DNA of 64,000 nt from Steinernema hermaphroditum. Lineage: Eukaryota; Nematoda; Chromadorea; Rhabditida; Steinernematidae. A program made the translations under genes and the position numbers. The notes below the pieces were generated by a model. It saw nothing but the letters and a program-made list of their open reading frames with translations, made no database searches and had not been told where the DNA came from. This document shows, piece by piece, positions 1 through 34,396 of this stretch. Positions within the stretch are counted from its first letter, which is position 1. Every line of letters starts with the position of its first letter. The stretch covers positions 6,474,012 to 6,538,011 of the forward strand of contig CM059623.1 in NCBI GenBank assembly GCA_030435675.1, given 5' to 3'.

Positions 1-283
1 GACTCTCTGAATCTCTATTTTGAATGTTACCTTTTTCCAAAAGAACCGATATTTCATCTAGGACTCATTGGGATACAGTATCTCGGGATGATCACCTAGA
101 AAATCGTGCATGGTCAACCGAAAATCCGGATTTCTTTCTCAGCGCCATTACATCCACTAGGGGCAGTGGACTCGACGTCATTGCTACGGTACTCTCGATT
201 CCTTCAGATGAGAGCAAGCTACCGTACTGTCCCCTCTTTGTGTGCATGTGGTAATCCCGTGCTGTCGCAGTGGGTTACGGTAC

Positions 284-3200
284 CTGGCGTTCGGTGAGCT
301 GGAGGCTCTCGGAGATCTCCTGGCGGCGTTTCCTCGTCAGGTACTTGTTGTAGTGGAACTCCTTCTCGAGCTCGAGCGTCTGGTTCCTCGAGTAGGTCTG
401 CCGGGTGCGCTTCGACTCGCCGCCCTTGCTCCCTGAAGGCGAAGAGTTTGGCGTGCGGTCGGAGGAGGGGCGGGTGTTTGTCGGGCGCCTTGTTCGCGCC
501 CATAATTCACGCGGCGACTCGCCCCGGCGGCCCTTTGATCTCGCGCCGGCGAGTCAACATCGCGACGAAGACGAATGGCAACGGCCAAACAGCCGCGCGA
601 CGCCACTTTTTGTCGCCACGATGCCTCCGAGGCTTCCAGGCAGCTGGAGGGCGCCTCGCCGGCGGAGGCGGCCATCAAGGTACAAGCGTTCGAAGGAAAT
701 TGCCGAAGGAGAGGTCCTCGATGACTCCAAAAAGAAGAAGCCATGGATCCCCGCGGAGGCACCTTCCCGCCCGACTGTATCCCTATCTTCGCCGTCCGAT
801 CTCCGCCACCCACGACGCGCGCTTTTTGTCTCCAACTTCGAATTCGCTTTGAAGTCCTCCGCCGCCGTCTCAGATCATCTTTTGACTTATGGACCTCCAA
901 GGCGCGGACCACACACGGCGTCTCTCTATCGCCCTACCGTACCCCGCGCATGCAGGAAGTGTCACTCAAACGGCGTTTTTTTCAGCGTGCGCGGGAGCGA
1001 ACGGGCGAATTGCTAATAATGCGCGAATCGCATAAATCACTCACAGGGCGAAAAAGCGAAATTTGAATATCTCGGGCTAATGGCACCGGGAGGGGAACAG
1101 GTCCCGGAGCGACAGCAGAGGGGAGAGGAGAGGGTGTATGTCTGGGAGGGGGAGACCCCTGGATGAATCACAAAAACGTTTCTCTCTCTGGGGAACTAGT
1201 TTCGTTCTTTGTTCGATCTCTTCTTCCAGAAGATTTTGATCCACTACTGTAGGCGAAGATAGCGCTCCTAAGGAGAAGAGTCGCCAAGCGAGGAAAAACG
1301 AGAAAATTGAAGAATGTCACACAGATCACCTATGGACGGGCCAGGGAGCGCCTCAGAGTTGGTGTTCCCTCCCCGAACGTCCCCCAGAGTGCCTGAAGAA
1401 GGTGTGCACCACATCTGCATCGGCGATCTCGAACTTCTTTTAATGGCCCATAAAACGACTCTTCGCGCAATCGCGCGCTCCCATAACGGGATTAGGGTTG
1501 CGCAACGCACGGGGAGACCGTAAAAGTAGTTTTCCGTTTTTGTAATCGCGAGTTCATCGCCTAACAGGCGTCGCGCAATGATCGATGTGGCGAGAAGGCC
1601 CCTAAAACTGTTCTGTTTGCGTTTCGGGGACCAATTGCCGGCGGCAAGGCCACAAAAGAGAAGATTGATTCGCCGCCGAGGTGCCTCGGCCCTCGGCTGT
1701 CCCGGCCTGGGCGCCTGCACCTTTAATAGCCGAGACGGTTAGGGGCTACAGTACCCAATCGCCGGGTGACAAACGACCAATTATGCAAATGGACAGGGGA
1801 CGAGCAGACGACGCGCAGATGGACCCGCGGGGTACGGTAGCAGCAGGGGATTAGAGGAGCTCACCGGTCATCTTCATCCACGGGAAGACGGGCTGACTGC
1901 CGGCGGCCAACTGCGCGGAACGGTCGCCGGCGGCGCTCGGAAGCGCCGAGAAGTGCGACGTCGACGGTGGCTGCAGCGCCGCGTTGTAGCCGGAGAACCT
2001 GAAAGCAGAGGTAATCAGTCGCCAATGAAACCGGAGCTTCTGAGAGGCTGAGAAGGAAGACGAATGAAGGCGATTCAGAGGAGGCAATACAGTAGCCGTG
2101 TTGGGCGAGGAGTGGAGGGGGAGACGTCGCAGAGAAGAAGTCGCCAGAATGCGTCAATGTCCGAAGTCTTTTCATGCATGGGGGAAGACCCACGCGCTAT
2201 CCTCTATGTCCAAAGACGTTGTTTGTATCATTTCCTGGATGAGATAAGACCGTTCAAAACAAGAGAAGCTGATTTTTCTTTTAAAAACAAAGACTCCGAC
2301 TCTCTGTGTTCATTCCAAGTCGATTTTTGGCCATTCCGAACCCCTTCCCTCCCCCAAAGCCCGAGCCGCGTTCCGGGGAATCTCAGCCTCGCCCGATCGA
2401 TCGCAAGGACGCGTTGTTTCAAAATACACCATCAATTCCGGGGTTCTTCAGCCCGATCTCTCGTCGAGAAGGAGCCCCCTCGGTGGAAACGGTGCCCCGC
2501 GCGTCTTCGCGTTCGCCTAAACCCGTTTCCGTCCCCTTCTTCTTGTTCGCCCGCGGCCTTCGATACGATATCGATCGTCGATTCAGTTCGAATTATTCAA
2601 ATCGTCACCTCGGCGCCGTGAGGAGGACTGGAAGGGGATAGGGGGCGACGAGGACTCGGATGCGCTCCCCAGACGACACGTCGCTTATCGATTCGGCGCG
2701 GATTCGCCCGGCAAGAATCGGCCAGAAGAGGCCGTGTGGAACCGGTTACGGCGATTCTTTGTCACTTCGCCGACATGTTTTCGGCCGAGGCACGTGTTAC
2801 CGTGACAAACAATCCTCACACAGCCGTACCGTATCCGGGGGCACTGGGGCGCTGCTTCGGGAACAGAACAGTGGGGGCGACGGCCTTCTACGCGGAGAGA
2901 ACTACGAAGAACGAGGGTATTGATCGGAAGGATCGTTTGGCGAATGGGAACCTAGAAGCGGGAGGAAAGAAGTCGCCTTTAGAGGATGCACGAGAAGGTT
3001 ACTGGAGGAAGCAGAGGCACACTTAACAGAGAAGTCCAATCAGAGATAATATTAGATGTTTCAGACGAAGGTCGCGGAAAAGGCTCCCTTCGAGTCGTTC
3101 GTCAGCTGCCAGGAGAGGTCTCCCCGGAATTCGCCTCTTCCCCGACCCCTCCTAACCAGCCGAGCAGAGGAGATGGCCTCGATCGGAGTCATAAAATCGG

Positions 3201-22184: not shown

Positions 22185-22894
22185 TTAAAGGGACCCGGTC
22201 ATGAATAAAAAAGTTTTATAAATCGTCTGAAAATTTTTGTTCCCATGTTTTCGGGGTCACTGAGCACGGTGGTGAAGTCGGTTTCCCAAAAAAACACAGT
22301 AGTTTTCAAGAAACGGACCTTAGGATTCAGAATGTGTTTTACCGTCGGTCCCGACACGATCTATCCGGCGTGGCACGCGTTGCGCAATATTTTCATTCTT
22401 TTTGGCCGAAATAGGTGACGACCAGGTCCGCGCTTGGGAACATTTTGCTCAGCAACTTCTGGCGAGTCGAATCAGCCAGGCGCGCCTAGATTGGATGTGT
22501 AGAAAATGCGGGAACTACGGTCGTGTCCGTCATGTAAGTCGTTTCGGGTCCGACAGACCGAGAATTGGACAGCAAAACTGTGTGGATCCTAAGGTCCGTT
22601 TCTTGAAAACTACTGGGAATTTTGAGAAACTGATTTCAGCATGATGTTGGGCAGCCTCTAAAACAAGGGGCTGAAACGTTTTCGGAACGAACCGCGAACT
22701 CTGCCTTGCGCTTGAAGGCAAAGTTTGCACGACGTTTTTTGTCTATTTTTTGCTATTTCTCGGAAACTATCATGTTTTTCCGAGAAACCGACTTCACCAT
22801 CGTGTTCAGCGACCCCGAAAACAGGTGTGTACAAATTTTCAGAAGATTTGAAGAACTTTTTTATCCATGACCGGATGAAGCAGGGTCCCTTTAA
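22185..22894. mobile_element. TTAA-flanked MITE-like element, copy 1
   Basis: Bounded by TTAA on both sides, with inverted termini TTAAAGGGACCCGGTCATG and its complement; the right end has a 10-bp insertion. The subterminal words tttcggggtc and ggtggtgaagtcggtttc are shared with the elements at 30727 and 41350. TTAA duplication is typical of the piggyBac superfamily, but there is no transposase here, so the class is inferred. Confidence 0.85.
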
Positions 22895-25800
22895 GGAATG
22901 AAGGAGACCACAGTTCCTGGTCTACTGAGGGTCAGCTTTAGTCGAATCAAAGGGCCCTCAGAAGTCCTGCCACTTGAGATCGAAAGCCCTACCTAAATGT
23001 CAGCCCCAATGGTCATGCAGCTCGTTAGTCAGGGACAAGTGCACTCCTACGCGACCCATTAACTCATGTCTTCTCGTCGGGAATTCGGTAAAAATGAAAA
23101 TAGCGAAGTGACCTCGATTTTGGCGACAAAAAACATTCTAATGTGTTTCGCATGTCGTAAATCTGAATTCAGATGGCGACGCGGGACGCACGCGCGGTCC
23201 ACGCTGATTAATTGGAGACTCTCGGCGCTCCTCGCAGCCGCTTCCCCTCCAGAAGCCTCCGCTTTTGGCCTTCCGAAGAAGGCTGGGCTGACCAGGGTCC
23301 TATTTCTCGTGCTTCAAAAGGGTCCCTTCCACTCTCTTTTTGAGAAGAATACAGTATGTTGCTTCGTGGAGCTATGCACATAAAGTGGATGTAAATCGTT
23401 TCCTCCTGCACCACGAAGGTCCCTCCACGCCGTCCACCAATCCTAACCACCTCTTTCACACCCAATTCCACAACCCGACACCTCTTCCAGATCGTTTACG
23501 GGGCATCGAGTCTTCTTGGCGCCTTTGATGTCCGCGGAATCAATTAAGTCTTCCGGCGGCCCGGTTGCCTTTCCGGGGTGCGCCGCCATAAATCTCGACA
23601 AGCACCTCCAAATCGGCTTCTGCTCTAAGGCGGCGACCGTTCGATTCCCAAAAAAACGCCTTACAACTTCTTCTTTCCGATTCCCATCGTCGCGTCGACG
23701 CCCGCGGCGGCTAATCGTTTGAAGCGATTGTTGTGCGCCGCTGCGGATTTATAGTCCCTCGCGGCGCGACTCTCTTCTGTGGCGACACCAACAATAACAC
23801 ACATCCATCCCCAGCCCCGACCACCCACACAGCTGCCCGGCGCCAGATGCCGGAAACGGAAGCCAAAAAGCGGCCTTCGCCCGCCTCCTTCTGTGGCCTC
23901 GACGCCGGCGCCGTCTCAGCCAAGAGATCGTCCTTCTGACTCTTTTCCTCGTGGAACTCGAGCTCCCTTTCGAGTTACCGCATCTCAAGATCCATTTCGG
24001 TACCGGACAGCTGTCCCCCCTTATTGAACCGCGTTCTCTCTGCAACACTACTCATTACAGTACTCGTTCCCGAGTTCCGTGTCTTCGATCTGTTCCAAAG
24101 AAAGGGATTCCCTCTCCTTCTTTTATCCACTGCAACGCACTTCTGACGCTTTTCGCGTCGACTGTCTTCGGATCTGAGTGACCTGGAAGCTACTCAGTAG
24201 CACATCCAGAGTGCCCGGAGTTTCTTAGGAACACTCGCTCGCGGAGGGTCGCTTTAGGGGCCGTTTTGCCTACCTAGTTGTTCTTGAAAGAAAGCTTCCA
24301 ATTGTGGATTTCGATACAGCAACACTGTCCCAGAGCGCCCTAGGAAGTGCAACGCCATAAGATGCAAGTCCATCCTAAAACAGAGAATCTGGCGTCTTGT
24401 CAAGAGTCTACGCAGAATATAGGCCGTGCGTAGAACTGCCTTCCTAATGAGGCCCTGTTCCTCACTGCCAGAGATCCAGCCCCCTCGCCCCCCCCCCTCT
24501 CTGCACCTTTCGGCGCTTCCGGGTTCCTCTTCGTCTCCAATCGATTCCCGAGTTGCAACTTCTGCGTCTCCGCCGCCCCTCTTTGCCTCCGAAAGTCCCA
24601 AAAAAGAGGTTTCGCCCGGCGATCGATTCGGTGCCCGAAATTAGCGAATCGGCGTCGCCTCCGAAAAACGTCCGTAATTACAGTGTTCACCCCCTCCTTC
24701 AGCGAATCCCACAATTAGAAGCCACCGAATCCGCCTCTGTTTACCTTCGCGCCGTTAGGGAAGTGCGCGCGTCTGGGGCTGCTCCCTGGGCCGATCGATC
24801 GATCCGCTCCCGACTACCGTACTCCGCGGGCTCCCGGGCAGGCCGGCGCCCTCAGGGCTCCACTTCAGAGGGCCAACAGGTGACCGCGAGGCCAATTAGC
24901 CCGGCGGCGCCTCCTCGAGAAGACGAGATTTACGATTTGCAAACAAACAGCGTTTGGCGAGTCTGTTTGTTTTGAGGCGTCTTGATGAATCACGGCCATT
25001 CTCGGTGTGGGAACTAATTGTGACGCTTTTATGTGACGGAGAAGAAGACGGCTACGCGAAGCCACGGAAGGGTCCAAATTTGAATTTACGTGTACGGTAG
25101 CACCGGCAGGTGAGAAACGATCGCTTCGGTCGTCTGCGCCGAACAAAGAGAATTGCCCTTTCCCCTCGTCGCACTTCGGATCGATCGCCTCCACCTACAG
25201 TAACTCAATCATAGAGCGCGTTATTTTGACAGAGGACGACCCTCCGGTGGTGAAGGGAGTTCAGAAGCGGAGGATTGTGGCAATCAGCAGAGAATCTCTT
25301 CGCTGGCTTCCCTTCCAGACACTCAGAACCCTCCTTCCTTAGCTGGTACTGGGCCACACCCCGAAAAATGCGTTAGCTGCTCGAGAGGGAAAACGACTCA
25401 AACTGGGTCGGTTTGTCTCGGAATCGCTTCGTCTATTCACGGCTATTCTATCCTTTCTCTATTTGCCTCTTTCTGAAGAGAGTAGAGACTCCTTCCTTCC
25501 CCAGAAGACTCGTCCAAGAAAGTTCCCTTCCTTTCAGCTTCTTCTCTCTTCCTAAACGAGCACCTCCTCCTCCGCTGCCACACGCCTAACCAACCCGAGG
25601 ACCTCCTCGTCCCTCCCGGGCTACCTCAAGCCGAATTCCTGGCGGCGCCCCTGATTCGCTTTTTTGCCTCCCCGAAGCTCCCTCGTTTCATCGCGGCGCC
25701 TCGCGCTCCAATTTGCGTCGAGTGGTCGCAAAAAATCGATGCGGCGCGGGTTACGGTAGGCGTCGCGCCGCCACGACGTCGCCCCAATGCATTCGGGACG

Positions 25801-28800: not shown

Positions 28801-29142
28801 AAGTGTCCGCGAATCGCGCCAAAAGCGATAAAATATCGAATTAAACCCCGAACTACGGTAGTTTTATGCAACTGTTTATCGCGCAGTCCCCCGAGAGTTA
28901 CATATTGAGGATAATTGGCTTTTTGGCGCCATCAAAAAGCTCGTTCGTCAGGTGGAAAGCGTCGCGATAACGATTCCCATTTACGACTTTCGCGTCGATT
29001 CCGAAGTTGCGAAGCCCTTCTTGGCGAAGTCCGAGCGGAATCCGCCGATTCCCCTCTGATTCGGCCCCTCGTTGCAGGACTCCGCCCCTTCTGTGATTAC
29101 GGTAGTCAGAATCGGTGGCACTGCAGAGAGAGACTCGACGCG
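22895..29142. other. Spacer upstream of egl-5/ant-1
   Basis: No recognisable gene in 6.2 kb immediately 5' of the egl-5/ant-1 start. It is GC-rich with frequent TACNGTA motifs (near 24816, 25092, 25195, 25750, 26082, 27151, 27760, 27828, 28178, 28854 and 29098) and AT-rich words such as CCATAAAT and TTTATGG. Promoter function for the Hox gene is inferred from position. Confidence 0.45.
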
Positions 29143-30279
29143 ATGAATGTTTCGTCGGTGACTTCGTCGGCGTCAGCGACGACCTCCTTCGACTTCTCGA
29201 CGCCGTCGGGGAGCCGCTTCCACGACGCGGCGCTCGCCGGGGCGACACCCCTTCCCGACGCCGACCACCTGCAGCGCCTGGCGCAGATGACCCAGGGCGT
29301 CGGCCACGTCAAGGCCTCCAACGGCGACTCAGGTGAGTCCCGGATTCCGGACGCGCCTCCGCGGCCCATTAGTTTTAGTGCGTCGAGCGGCGGGACCCTC
29401 GGAGCCGGCCTAATCCCTTTTTGTCACTTCCGGAGTGGCGCCTTCTGACCGCGATCTCGTTGCAGATGGCACGGCGTCGCAGCCGGACCCCTCGCTCTAC
29501 CAGTCGGCGGCCGCCGCCGCCTACGTGCAGCAGTACGGCAACTGGCCCAACTACTACCAGCAGTTCGGACAGCCGATGAACCCGGCGGCGTTCCCGGCGT
29601 GGCCCGCGCAGTGTTACGCGCCGCCGCACTGGCCCAACTACGGTAAGTGCAGACAACACGCACATCAGCTGGCCCTCCGCGAGCGGTGATTCCGCTGATT
29701 TATGCCCCGCTTTATGGCTGCGCTTCCGGGCCGCGCGCATGGCGTCGCGGCAGGACCTCAAGCACTCTCAGCTCGGCCGTTTCAGCTCAGTCGAAGAAGG
29801 GTCGGCAGACGTACCAGCGCTACCAGACGAGCGTGCTCGAGTCCAAGTTCCAGCAGTCCTCCTACGTGTCCAAGAAGCAGCGCGAGGAGCTGCGGCTGCA
29901 GACGAACCTCACCGACCGACAGATCAAGATCTGGTTCCAGAACCGGCGAATGAAGGCGAAGAAGGAGAAGCACCGCATGGAGGACCAGGGCGAGCACTCG
30001 GCCCTCCTCCCCGCCAATCCCCCGAAGAGCCTTGCCGACAACGTCGAGCTCACCTCGGCCAGCGAGGCCCACGACAAGATGAAGAACGGCTCCGCCGCGA
30101 GCGGCCCGCAGCCCCCTACCGTGCCCCCGGCGCTCGGGCACCAGCAGACCCCGTGGTTCGCGACGGGCCCCGCCACACCGACGGAGTCTCCGTGGAGCCA
30201 CATGCTCCCGCCACCCCACGCGAACCCGCACGCCTACAACCCGATATCCGGTTACTCGTTATGTCCCCCCAATATTTAA
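29143..30279 (+). CDS. egl-5: EGL-5-like posterior Hox protein (isoform with first homeobox exon)
   Basis: Posterior (Abd-B-group) homeodomain transcription factor. Exons 29143-29332, 29466-29642 and 29786-30279 give 286 residues. Exon 2 encodes an aromatic, proline-rich stretch ([16 protein letters not shown]). The homeodomain lies at about residues 125-184: [19 protein letters not shown], then [13 protein letters not shown] and [16 protein letters not shown], with Gln50 and Asn51 present. The tail has LLPANPPK, which I recall from C. elegans EGL-5. There is no intron inside the homeobox, unlike the mab-5-like gene. A polyadenylation signal AATAAA follows at 30344. Exons 1 and 2 both end in phase 1, as is also needed by the second homeobox exon downstream. 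Confidence 0.92.
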
Positions 30280-30671
30280 GGCCCTTGTGTGTCGTGTGTT
30301 GTGACTGTGTAAATGTTCTCCGGAGTCGGCCCCAGACTCCCTCAATAAACAGATCGTATACTCCCGGTCTCCTCTGCACCGTATCCCACACAACTACCGT
30401 ATCCTACCGTATGCGTCTTTCAGATTTCTCCGCCGCGGCGACCGGCGGGCGCAAGCGCGGGCGCCAGACCTACTCGCGTCACCAAACGCTGGAGCTGGAG
30501 AAGGAGTTCCACTTCAACAAGTACCTGACGCGTCGGCGCCGCATCGAACTCAACCGGAGCCTCGGCCTCTCCGAGCGGCAGATCAAGATCTGGTTCCAGA
30601 ACCGGCGCATGAAAAAGAAGAAGGAGGACAAGGCCCGTGAAGAGCCCAGTAGTTCCACCTCCGTCCTCTGA
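29143..30671 (+). CDS. ant-1: ANT-1/Antp-type Hox protein (alternative isoform using second homeobox exon)
   Basis: Exons 29143-29332 and 29466-29642 joined to 30424-30671 read in frame for 204 residues. The last exon has its own acceptor (gcgtctttcag) and encodes a central-class homeodomain at about residues 132-191: [21 protein letters not shown], then [19 protein letters not shown] and [15 protein letters not shown]. The exon enters in phase 1, the same as the EGL-5 homeobox exon, so it can replace it. No convincing separate promoter or first exon lies in the 145 bp between the two; an in-frame ATG at 30411 overlaps the acceptor and could be an alternative start. From memory, a linked egl-5/ant-1 arrangement with shared exons was described in Brugia malayi. 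Splicing here is predicted, not observed. Confidence 0.78.
30344..30349 (+). terminator. AATAAA polyadenylation signal between the two homeobox exons
   Basis: AATAAA lies 65 bp after the egl-5 stop and 75 bp before the ant-1 exon. Use of this site would end the egl-5 form; reading past it would be needed for the ant-1 form. Confidence 0.75.
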
Positions 30672-30726
30672 ATCACTCTCCGAATCGGTCCCTAGTCCGC
30701 CTAGTCAGTCGCTCATTTTCATGTTC

Positions 30727-31351
30727 TTAAAGGGACCCGGTCATGGCTAAAAAAGTGTTTGAAAACTTCTGAAAATTTTTGTTCCTCTGTTTTCGGGGTC
30801 GCTGAGCACGGTGGTGAAGTGGGTTTCCCAAAAAAACTAGTGATTTTCAAGAAACAGACCTTAGGATTCAGAATGTGTTTTACCATCGGTCCCGACACGA
30901 TCTATCCGGTACGGCACGCGTTGTGCAATATTTTCATTCTTTCTGGCCGAAATAGGTGACGGCCAGGTCCGCGCTTGGGAACATTTTGCTCAGTAGCTTG
31001 CGCTACTGGCGCGTCGAATGAACCCAGGCTCGCCTAGATTGGATAAGTGCACAGAAAACGCGGGAACTACGGTTGTGTCCGTCATGGTAGTCGTCTCGGG
31101 AGCGGCAAACCGAGAATTAGACAGTAAAACTGTGTGGATCCTAAGGTCTGTTTCTTGAAAACTACTGGGTTTTTTTGGGAAACTGATTTCGGCATGATGT
31201 TGGGCAGCCTCTAAAAGAAGGGACCAAAAGGTTTTCGGGACGAACTCTGCCTTGCGCTTCAAGGCAAAGTTTGCACCACATTTTTTTGTCTATTTTTGCT
31301 ATTTCTCGGAAACTATCGTGTTTTCCGAGATCCATGACCGGGTCCCTTTAA
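30727..31351. mobile_element. TTAA-flanked MITE-like element, copy 2
   Basis: Starts 56 bp after the ant-1 stop. It has TTAA at both ends, the same left terminus as copy 1 over more than 150 bp, and a right end that has lost most of its inner arm but keeps gaccgggtcccttTAA. Much of the interior is also shared with copy 1 (tgttttaccrtcggtcccg and neighbours). Confidence 0.87.
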
Positions 31352-32543
31352 TGAATGAATCTGAACAAGCCTCGGGAGGTACACACGGTGCAGACGTAGA
31401 GTGACAATCTCGTATCCCAAATGAGCCCGAGGGCTGGAAGATGGCATCATGCAGATAGAACGTGTGCAGACGATCAACTCAGATTCGAATTCCTTCGTCA
31501 TATCAAATGAAATCAGCTTTTTGGGAGATGGCCGAAGATAGAGCGGCGTGAGAAAAGCAAGTAGCAGATTCCGAGCAAGCTTTCTCAGGCTGATTTCTCA
31601 GAATTATTCCTCTTGGGTCAACCTGTCCACGCCAGTTCCATGCCTCTCAGAAGTGGAGTCACCCCTTCGCTGGTCGTTTTCATAACATCCAATCAGCCCT
31701 AAATCATCCATTCAATTGAAATGCGCATGGCGGACCCCTGCGTCGCCTGTTTTACGACTGCGAAGTCAGCGGGAGCGTCTCTTCTCCGTGACTACGGTAG
31801 TTCCCCACCGAAGAAGGTGACGCTCGAGTGAATGGAAACCAGTTGTCGCTCGTTTGTTCGCTCGTCGACGCCTTTCATATGCAAATCGGACGCGAAACGA
31901 CTTGGTGGAGCGCGAAGAGCGCAAAAAGGGGCGAAGGGGCTCCCGGAAGAAGCCGCTCAGGGGGACTACGGTGGCCACTTCAAAGCGGCACTTCCGCCGG
32001 TCGTTAAACGAGGAGTTACACCGAGTTAACGACGCCATCGACGGCCCTTCGACAGCTTGCCGACGGCACAGGTGTTGCGATTGCGACGGATAAAGACGTG
32101 GACGGAATTATGATCTGGCGACAACAACAGCGATGAGGTGGTGACCTCTGAGATGACCCGAGCGCCGGGGCCATAAACCGCCACCTAAGAGATGCTCTTC
32201 AAAAAATACCGAAATTTATGTTGTGACATGTGCGCGGCGGTAATTACGGAACCGCGGGACGGTGCCAGAAGCGCGGAATAGCGCCAGAAGAATCGGCTCG
32301 TCATCAGATGGGGACGGCCGACCACAGACTCCAACATACGCCCCAGTCATGCACAGTCCAGACATGTCTACGAGTGTGGTGTCTAGACAAAACGCCGAAA
32401 ACGCGAAGGGCCATAGGTCCCACAACGGCGCCCTTAAGGTTTCTACCGTATCCCGGAACAGCACATGGGGTGCGCGAGAGGCGACCGGTGGGAGGTTTCG
32501 CCCGGCGCTCTAGGCTAGTTTGGGCCCTGGGTTCTTCTGAACG
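31352..32543. other. Spacer between Hox locus and UGT gene
   Basis: No gene recognised. TACNGTA motifs occur near 31792 and 32440, and AT-rich homeodomain-core words occur throughout. Confidence 0.4.
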
Positions 32544-34396
32544 ATGGTCTCGCGATTTCCCGCTCTGTGTGCGTTCATCTTCGTGCTCGCCGCCGTTCCG
32601 CCCGCAGAATCCTCCAAGTTTCTCGTTTATTCGCCGACGATCGCCCAGAGTCACGTCTTCTTCCTCCAAAAGATCGCCGATGTGCTCGTAGAAGGAGGCC
32701 ATGAAGTGGTGAGTTTGCGACCTGTTTTGTCCGATATTCATCCGTTGAGCTTCTTCCAGGTGATACTCCGGCCAATATACGATCCCGACGTCTTCACGAA
32801 TGGCACGTCCGCGGTGCCACGCGTCATTGAGTACTGGGGTGACGGGATCGACCGCAGCGTGTGGCGCAAGCTCCAGATCAAGGGGACCGATGGACGCCAG
32901 TTCGATGCGAACGCCGATCCGTTTCCGCTAAGCGATATCGACCTCATGTACAGTATTTACCGGGAAACGTGCTCTCAGCTGGTCCACGACGAAGATCTGA
33001 TTCGAGAGTTACGGAACGAGTCCTTCGACGTAATCATCAGCGAGAAGTACGATGGCTGTGACGTTGGAATCGCCCATGTGCTCGGAATCCGAACCGGCAT
33101 CGTCGCCACTGCGTTGCCGTTCCATCTCAGCGTCCAAACCCTTGCTGGACTGTCACCTTCTCCCCATATTGAGCCTCGTTAGTGTTTATTCTGATCAACC
33201 ACATCGACCTTCTTTCAGTGTTGACCACGCTTCGCTCGGATCGGATGACCTATTGGGAGCGCTTTTTGAATTTCGTTGAGGGAAGAGTGTTCATCCACTA
33301 CTTTTCAAACTATCTAGATAGGCAGTACAAGATATTTTATGGTGAGTACCCTATACCTTCTGTCTCTGGTTCTCATGCTCGTGCTGTTTCAGAAGCTTTC
33401 GGTGACGCCTTTCCTGTGATTCCGGGGCTAGAGAAGGAGTTTACGTCAGTGGCGTTCGTCAATAGCCTAGAGATGCTGGAATTTGCCCGTCCTATCTCGC
33501 ACAAAATCATTTACATTGGAGGACTCGGAATAGCGGAACCAAAACCACTAGATGCAGTAAGTGGACTCGCATTATTCCTGCATACATTGTTCACTCCTTT
33601 TAGTATTATAAGCAAATATTCAACAATGCCCAACGTGGGGTGGTTTTGGTGTCTTTCGGATCGTTGATCAACTCGTCCCACATGCCTGAAGAAATGAAAT
33701 TAGCAATGCTCGAAGCGTTTTCTCTGTTCCCGCAGTACTCATTCATGTGGAAGTACGACAAGCCCGACGACCCCATATTTGCTAATTTCTCGAATGTATA
33801 TCCTCTAAGTTGGATTCCACAGGTGGACTTTCTCGGTAAGACGGCCTTCAGAAACTGACTTTAACGATCTTCTTTCTTCAGCACATGCTCGGACGAAAGC
33901 CTTCTTGACCCATTGCGGACTGAATAGCGTTACTGAATCTGTTTTCCACGGGGTCCCGCTTGTGGCTCTGCTGCTGTTCGGTGACCAGCCACACAACGCA
34001 GCGCTCATCCGCTCCCGGGAACTCGGAGTAATCCTGAGCAAAGCTGATGTTACGGTAGAGTCGGTCTCGAATGCTCTGCGCGCCGTTTTGGAAGAAAACC
34101 ATCCTATCAGGGGTAATGTACGACGGATGCAGAAGTTGCTCTCGAAAAGACCGTTCAAGTCAGAAGATCTCGTGCTGCGGTGGTCGGAATATGCTGCTAC
34201 GTTTGGGTCGTTGCCCGAGATGAACGTCTATGCGGGTGAGATGGCTTGGTTCCAATCGACGATGCTGGACATCGTCGCCCCACTTATCGCCGTCACTGGA
34301 TTGCTTGTATATTGTGTGTTTTATCTTTTGATGCAATCGTTTTGCGTTTTAAAGCGGGTGGTTTCGAGAATGACCGCCAAGCACAAAATCGAATAG
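32544..34396 (+). CDS. UDP-glycosyltransferase (UGT, GT1 family)
   Basis: Membrane enzyme that transfers sugar from a UDP-sugar to small lipophilic substrates, as in xenobiotic detoxification. Six exons (32544-32708, 32760-33178, 33220-33341, 33393-33556, 33604-33835, 33882-34396) give 538 residues, a usual UGT length. An N-terminal signal peptide (FPALCAFIFVLAAVPPAESS) is followed by an N-terminal domain. The UGT signature region contains FLTHCGLNSVTESVFHGVP and PLVALLLFGDQPHNA, and a C-terminal membrane anchor lies near residues 490-525 with a basic tail. All introns are 40-51 bp. I cannot assign it to a particular nematode ugt gene. There is no sign of a break. Confidence 0.93.

Follow-up and report, generated by a model that had tools for sequence, protein, structure and literature searches.

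The egl-5 locus of the nematode Steinernema hermaphroditum is very probably one transcription unit with two alternative last exons, which encode the homeodomains of EGL-5 and ANT-1. It lies within the 64,000-nucleotide stretch of DNA that was analysed (the window, in whose positions all coordinates are given unless a contig is named), on contig C3 at C3:6503154-6504682. This contig is 16.7 Mb long; the assembly totals 90.6 Mb in 60 contigs, with 87.9 Mb of it in just five. In our model the pre-mRNA would start upstream of exon 1 and contain exons 1 and 2. Joining of the exon 2 donor to the near acceptor (29785/29786), followed by a cut after the AATAAA at 30344, would yield the 286-aa posterior Hox protein EGL-5. 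Skipping of the near exon and passage of its poly(A) site would instead allow the same donor to be joined at 30423/30424, giving the 204-aa ANT-1, a Hox protein of the central class that carries the EGL-5 N-terminus. Both products would draw on a common promoter, and use of the 29642-30424 splice in this species would be coupled to the choice of poly(A) site. The evidence that carries this reading is demonstrated below: the anatomy of the locus, its phases and open frames, a spliced ANT exon without a start of its own, and the conservation of that exon. The features are as follows (^ marks an exon edge in the motifs quoted here and below).

29143 to 29332, plus strand: exon 1 (coding part), the shared N-terminus, from the re-read sequence and homologous to nematode EGL-5 N-termini
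29466 to 29642, plus strand: exon 2, shared, with a conserved tryptophan-rich stretch, from the sequence and comparison with EGL-5
29643 to 29785, plus strand: intron to the near (EGL-5) homeobox exon, GTAAGT...TTTCAG, 143 nt, from the sequence
29643 to 30423, plus strand: alternative intron to the ANT exon, GTAAGT...TTTCAG, 781 nt, which would bypass the EGL-5 exon and its poly(A) signal; predicted junction
29786 to 30279, plus strand: EGL-5 (AbdB-type) homeobox exon, homeodomain 60/60 to S. carpocapsae EGL-5
30344 to 30349, plus strand: AATAAA, likely poly(A) signal of the EGL-5 form, from sequence only
30424 to 30671, plus strand: ANT-1 (Antp-type) homeobox exon, from the sequence and homeodomain identities

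The locus is compact, spanning 1.5 kb from the first ATG to the last stop. Exon 1 (190 nt, ATG at 29143) ends in phase 1 at the donor CAG^GTGAGT, exon 2 (177 nt) ends in phase 1 at ACG^GTAAGT, and both homeobox exons are preceded by TTTCAG and entered in phase 1, the EGL-5 exon closing with a TAA at 30277-30279 and the ANT exon with a TGA at 30669-30671. An earlier note on this DNA had described these phases and acceptors, a separate stop for each homeobox exon and an AATAAA between them, and all of its coordinates hold. The AATAAA at 30344 is the sole AATAAA or ATTAAA within 28901-33000, and it follows the last base of the EGL-5 stop by 65 nt and precedes the ANT exon by 80 nt. Four joinings of the exons are open in frame throughout: exons 1 and 2 with the EGL-5 exon (286 aa) or with the ANT exon (204 aa), and exon 1 directly with the EGL-5 exon (227 aa) or with the ANT exon (145 aa). 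The last two bear on a further suggestion of the note, that exon 2 could be skipped, which phase permits and nothing beyond phase favours; such skipping would remove the tryptophans. A TTTCAG with an open phase-1 entry at most 40 nt upstream, which both homeoboxes have, was found at 0.65% of 100,000 random window positions, and at 1.7% when TTNCAG was accepted. The far (ANT) acceptor, GCGTCTTTCAG^A, is somewhat better than the near (EGL-5) acceptor, GGCCGTTTCAG^C, being closer to the nematode consensus, and a better far acceptor would suit a regulated choice between the two homeobox exons. An Rfam search of the 64-kb window returned no matches.

The first homeobox gene is identified as EGL-5 (HOX9-13) by its homeodomain together with conserved N- and C-terminal stretches: identities to S. 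carpocapsae EGL-5 are 56/63 in exon 1, 55/59 in exon 2, 60/60 in the homeodomain and 95/102 in the C-terminus, and the homeodomain is 59/60 identical to that of Brugia EGL-5. The second homeobox is assigned, by identity and without a tree, to ANT-1 (HOX6-8, Antp), distinct from the MAB-5 and LIN-39 of the same genome. Its homeodomain shares 49/60 residues with Antennapedia, which also provides its best solved-structure matches, 50/60 with amphioxus Hox7, 47 and 48/60 with two nematode records taken as MAB-5, and, within the same genome, 43/60 with lin-39 and 33/60 with EGL-5. Identity rises to 54-56/60 against seven records from clades III and V (Elaeophora, Loa, Onchocerca ochengi, an lgn record, Trichostrongylus, Necator and Angiostrongylus), so that the ANT exon can be regarded as under constraint; the same identities, together with the intact frame, rule out a dead exon. 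When the 82-aa ANT exon was compared with its own genome, the scored candidates gave the exon itself (100%) and then lin-39 (64%), while the shared N-terminus matched exons 1 and 2 only (2 of 3 candidates).

Assignment of the second homeobox to mab-5 is ruled out, as mab-5 is a separate minus-strand gene with which the window opens (212-451 and 1863-2018, with another exon lying before the window). This gene, with an FPWM exon and a homeodomain exon (window 1-2018, minus), lies about 27 kb from egl-5 in divergent orientation. Elsewhere on the contig are lin-39 (C3:6114373, minus), ceh-13 (C3:6170247, plus) and, about 7 Mb from egl-5, an AbdB-type homeobox (C3:13637211, minus), interrupted by an intron within the homeodomain and taken here as php-3. 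Steinernema belongs to Tylenchina according to a lineage look-up, and thus to clade IV. The accessible portion of PMC11603191 describes ant-1 as lost in Tylenchina except S. carpocapsae, and the accessible portion of PMC4578762 mentions ceh-13, lin-39, mab-5 and egl-5 for Steinernema, the term 'ant-1' being absent from that portion.

The ANT exon looks incapable of working alone and would need a cis-spliced upstream exon whenever its acceptor is used. The first in-frame ATG past that acceptor is at 30609, within the homeodomain, with none between 30424 and the homeodomain, and the ATG at 30411 precedes the acceptor and is removed when the acceptor is used. By itself the exon also has no W motif. 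Motifs of this kind, which bind PBC, are usual in Hox proteins about a dozen residues before the homeodomain, and the joining of exon 2 to the ANT exon places HWPNY, with its tryptophan, 12 residues ahead of RKRGRQ; the exon 2 tryptophans may act as a PBC-binding motif in both proteins. Exon 2 would give the ANT exon its frame, its start and its tryptophans. A donor scan of 29643-30423, scored against a hand-made consensus and not a splice-site matrix from this genome, found four GT sites with at least 6/11, of which exon 2's own was the best (10) and the others scored 7, 6 and 6. The earlier note had interpreted the locus as shared 5' exons with two homeobox endings; its geometry is as described, and the startless ANT exon and the rank of exon 2 as best phase-1 donor support that interpretation.

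A private first exon for the ANT exon, far upstream or in an egl-5 intron and bypassing exons 1 and 2, is improbable. Sequence alone leaves room for one, and the window covers 29 kb upstream, but besides the exon 2 donor only the site at 30251 (6/11) combines a phase-1 end with in-frame ATGs in 29643-30423, and it lies inside the EGL-5 frame. Upstream on the plus strand, a resemblance to the hexapeptide was found just once, in a 16-residue frame at 23380 (IKWM).

Records from other nematodes were consistent with a spliced ANT exon. Of 7,908 proteins scored against the 204-aa joined product, 7,564 matched it, and the best 120 of these were examined. The EGL-5 N-terminus was present in 23 of these, 19 with the EGL-5 homeodomain and 4 without any homeodomain, and one of the 19 (P0002, Trichostrongylus) also has the ANT homeodomain; the N-terminus together with the ANT but not the EGL-5 homeodomain was found in none of the best 120 of the 7,564 matches. 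A further gene model, P0009 (O. ochengi), holds both homeodomains and no N-terminus. In both models the exit from EGL-5 is at one shared Cys codon, that of YP(I/L)CPP ahead of the stop. We regard them as joins made by a gene finder, which nevertheless reveal the adjacency of egl-5 and ant-1 in clades V and III (the clades of these two species are from lineage look-up). P0016, with the EGL-5 N-terminus, and P0190, with ANT, are each on an lgn contig of 3612 nt, to judge by this length probably one and the same. In two ANT-only searches (best 120 each), the nematode rows that were read were single-exon, partial or fused models, and the window's own record, P0188, is an 86-aa single-exon frame from the ATG at 30411. 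This record, and the lack of an N-terminus joined to ANT alone among the best 120, count against the model.

Some of the ANT records run through the acceptor, and a frame that does so at a phase-1 YTTNCAG^A(T/C) must read [LFIV][SPTA]D at the edge. This pattern fits all seven informative ANT records, window included, from clades III, IV and V: LSD in the window, FAD in Elaeophora, FSD in P0190, IAD in Loa, IPD in Necator, VTD in Angiostrongylus and VPD in Trichostrongylus. Two of the nine ANT records are uninformative here and were not counted, P0009 being spliced at the edge and P0192 starting past it. The rule was set after the records had been seen, and the relatives' acceptors were read back from residues, not DNA; a chance fit is about 0.07 per record, and about 3e-4 overall if the records are grouped into three independent cases (Steinernema, spirurids and strongyles). 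Ahead of the edge the residues vary between clades, with some letters in common among Elaeophora, Loa and P0190, and in P0189 and P0192, as printed, no Met stands between the edge and the homeodomain. The exon 2 donor leaves a comparable trace, in that four records reading through it have G, G, C and G after WP(N/T)Y, which fits NGT, a phase-1 GT. The comparison with other nematode genomes proposed in the earlier note, made here with protein records, thus yielded seven matching edges out of seven and two gene models holding both homeodomains; conservation of the ANT exon across clades III, IV and V is shown by these sequences, and that of its edge indirectly.

The same records bear on another possibility, to which we give about as little credence as to a private first exon: that the ANT exon forms a small independent gene, driven by a promoter of its own and read unspliced from the ATG at 30411 before the acceptor, with an 86-aa product that is almost only homeodomain. 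The ANT frame is indeed open unspliced from 29580, with in-frame ATGs at 29739, 30261 and 30411, and the 86-aa frame stands in the protein set as P0188, whether as an annotation or a mechanical open frame. However, the sequence ahead of the edge differs from clade to clade, as fits read-through of an acceptor and not a coding start, an unspliced small ANT protein would be without the W motif, and cis splicing is what B. malayi uses, according to the accessible portion of PMC11603191.

An egl-5/ant-1 operon, in which the RNA is cut after the AATAAA at 30344 and a spliced leader is added at 30424, is less probable still. The 80 nt from AATAAA to acceptor come near the operon spacing of C. elegans, a likeness to nematode spliced-leader operons in general, and the genome contains 265 exact copies of SL1, with none for the reversed control. 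The downstream cistron of such an operon has to be translatable, whereas here no ATG lies between 30424 and the homeodomain; SL1 as searched contains no ATG either, so a leader at 30424 would leave the homeodomain without a preceding start codon and therefore give no Hox protein. The SL1 copies, which were sought with the C. elegans sequence, are in many cases head-to-head or clustered, on C2 at about 15.3-16.0 Mb, among the first 100 listed. We give least credence to a splice from the EGL-5 exon to the ANT exon that yields a single protein with two homeodomains: P0002 and P0009 are gene models of this kind, leaving at the Cys codon of YP(I/L)CPP, but the window site reads T^GTCCCC and falls under the donor cut (6/11), a gene finder forced past the stop would pick that site anyway, and P0002 also requires an unrelated stretch of some 60 residues.

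Under the model of alternative last exons we also compared conservation of the shared exons with that of the EGL-5-only C-terminus. The ratio of the two identities was 1.67-2.06 in seven species with ant-1 and 1.54-2.14 in four without it, presence or absence being assigned per group after the accessible text of PMC11603191 and not per species, and no excess conservation of the shared exons was seen in the ant-1 species after division by the C-terminus (seven versus four species), a result that counts against the model. The comparison omits S. carpocapsae, which is too close (0.98), a pair of Pristionchus-type records for which absence is presumed (1.67, and 3.88 in a partial record), and four records of unknown ant-1 status (1.67-2.68).

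Downstream of the locus, 55 nt past the ANT stop, lies a 625-bp foldback element (window 30727-31351) whose ends carry TTAAAGGGACCCGGTCATGG in inverted order. A second copy is found at window 22186-22785, and at least 39 other near-full copies (85-92%) were detected with 40 of 252 candidates scored. With the flanks of the element rejoined, an AATGAA (near 31350) lies 57 nt past the ANT stop, and the insertion may for this reason have displaced an ANT poly(A) signal. The next gene, from window 32541 onwards on the plus strand, begins by eye like a secreted protein of UDP-glucosyltransferase type.

Loci with more than one product are known from other systems. The cholinergic unc-17/cha-1 locus of C. 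elegans makes two products by alternative splicing from a shared 5' exon, but there the shared exon is non-coding and the products are unrelated proteins, whereas here the shared exons are coding. Bicistronic Ubx/Antp RNAs of myriapods, crustaceans and an onychophoran (PMC2938723, accessible portion) resemble the present case in that two neighboring Hox genes, Antp included, occur in one RNA with splice variants; they contain two frames, apparently each with its own N-terminus, whereas here there would be alternative endings of one frame. Examined in that light, the ANT exon has no start when spliced, and its frame has the ATGs 29739, 30261 and 30411 when unspliced. The closest parallel is egl-5/ant-1 of Brugia malayi, mentioned in the earlier note and indeed in print: the accessible portion of PMC11603191, citing Aboobaker and Blaxter 2003, describes both homeodomain exons as joined to one 5' exon by cis splicing, and suggests that the arrangement may be an intermediate stage in Hox gene loss. 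In both species an Antp-type homeobox comes after egl-5 and both homeodomain exons can follow one 5' exon; in the present locus it lies directly downstream on the same strand, and the phases of both exons match. The present case differs in belonging to clade IV, in having two shared coding exons and in its compact 1.5 kb; in Brugia the transcripts have been shown, whereas here they are predicted from the genome sequence.

In the literature searched on nematode Hox genes, which included the accessible portions of PMC4578762, PMC4448998, PMC5531438 and PMC3890508 and had most subscription papers outside its scope, no report was found of a shared-exon arrangement of egl-5 and ant-1 in Steinernema or in clade V. 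The kind of arrangement is known from Brugia; the clade IV case and the reading across clades look new within that literature. The data hint at an origin of the arrangement before clades III-V diverged. We lean slightly towards the broader view that across Rhabditida ant-1 is no separate gene but an alternative last exon of egl-5; the shared exons would then have existed before these three clades separated and have been kept wherever the Antp homeobox was kept, the reported losses of ant-1 being the loss of one egl-5 exon. If conserved in all three clades, the arrangement would argue against the intermediate-stage view put forward in the accessible text of PMC11603191. Counts and comparisons of Hox genes treat each as a gene of its own; if ant-1 exists only as the alternative ending proposed here, a central and a posterior Hox product in these worms have one promoter and one N-terminus in common, the choice between them is made at the RNA level, and the loss of ant-1 would cost just one exon.
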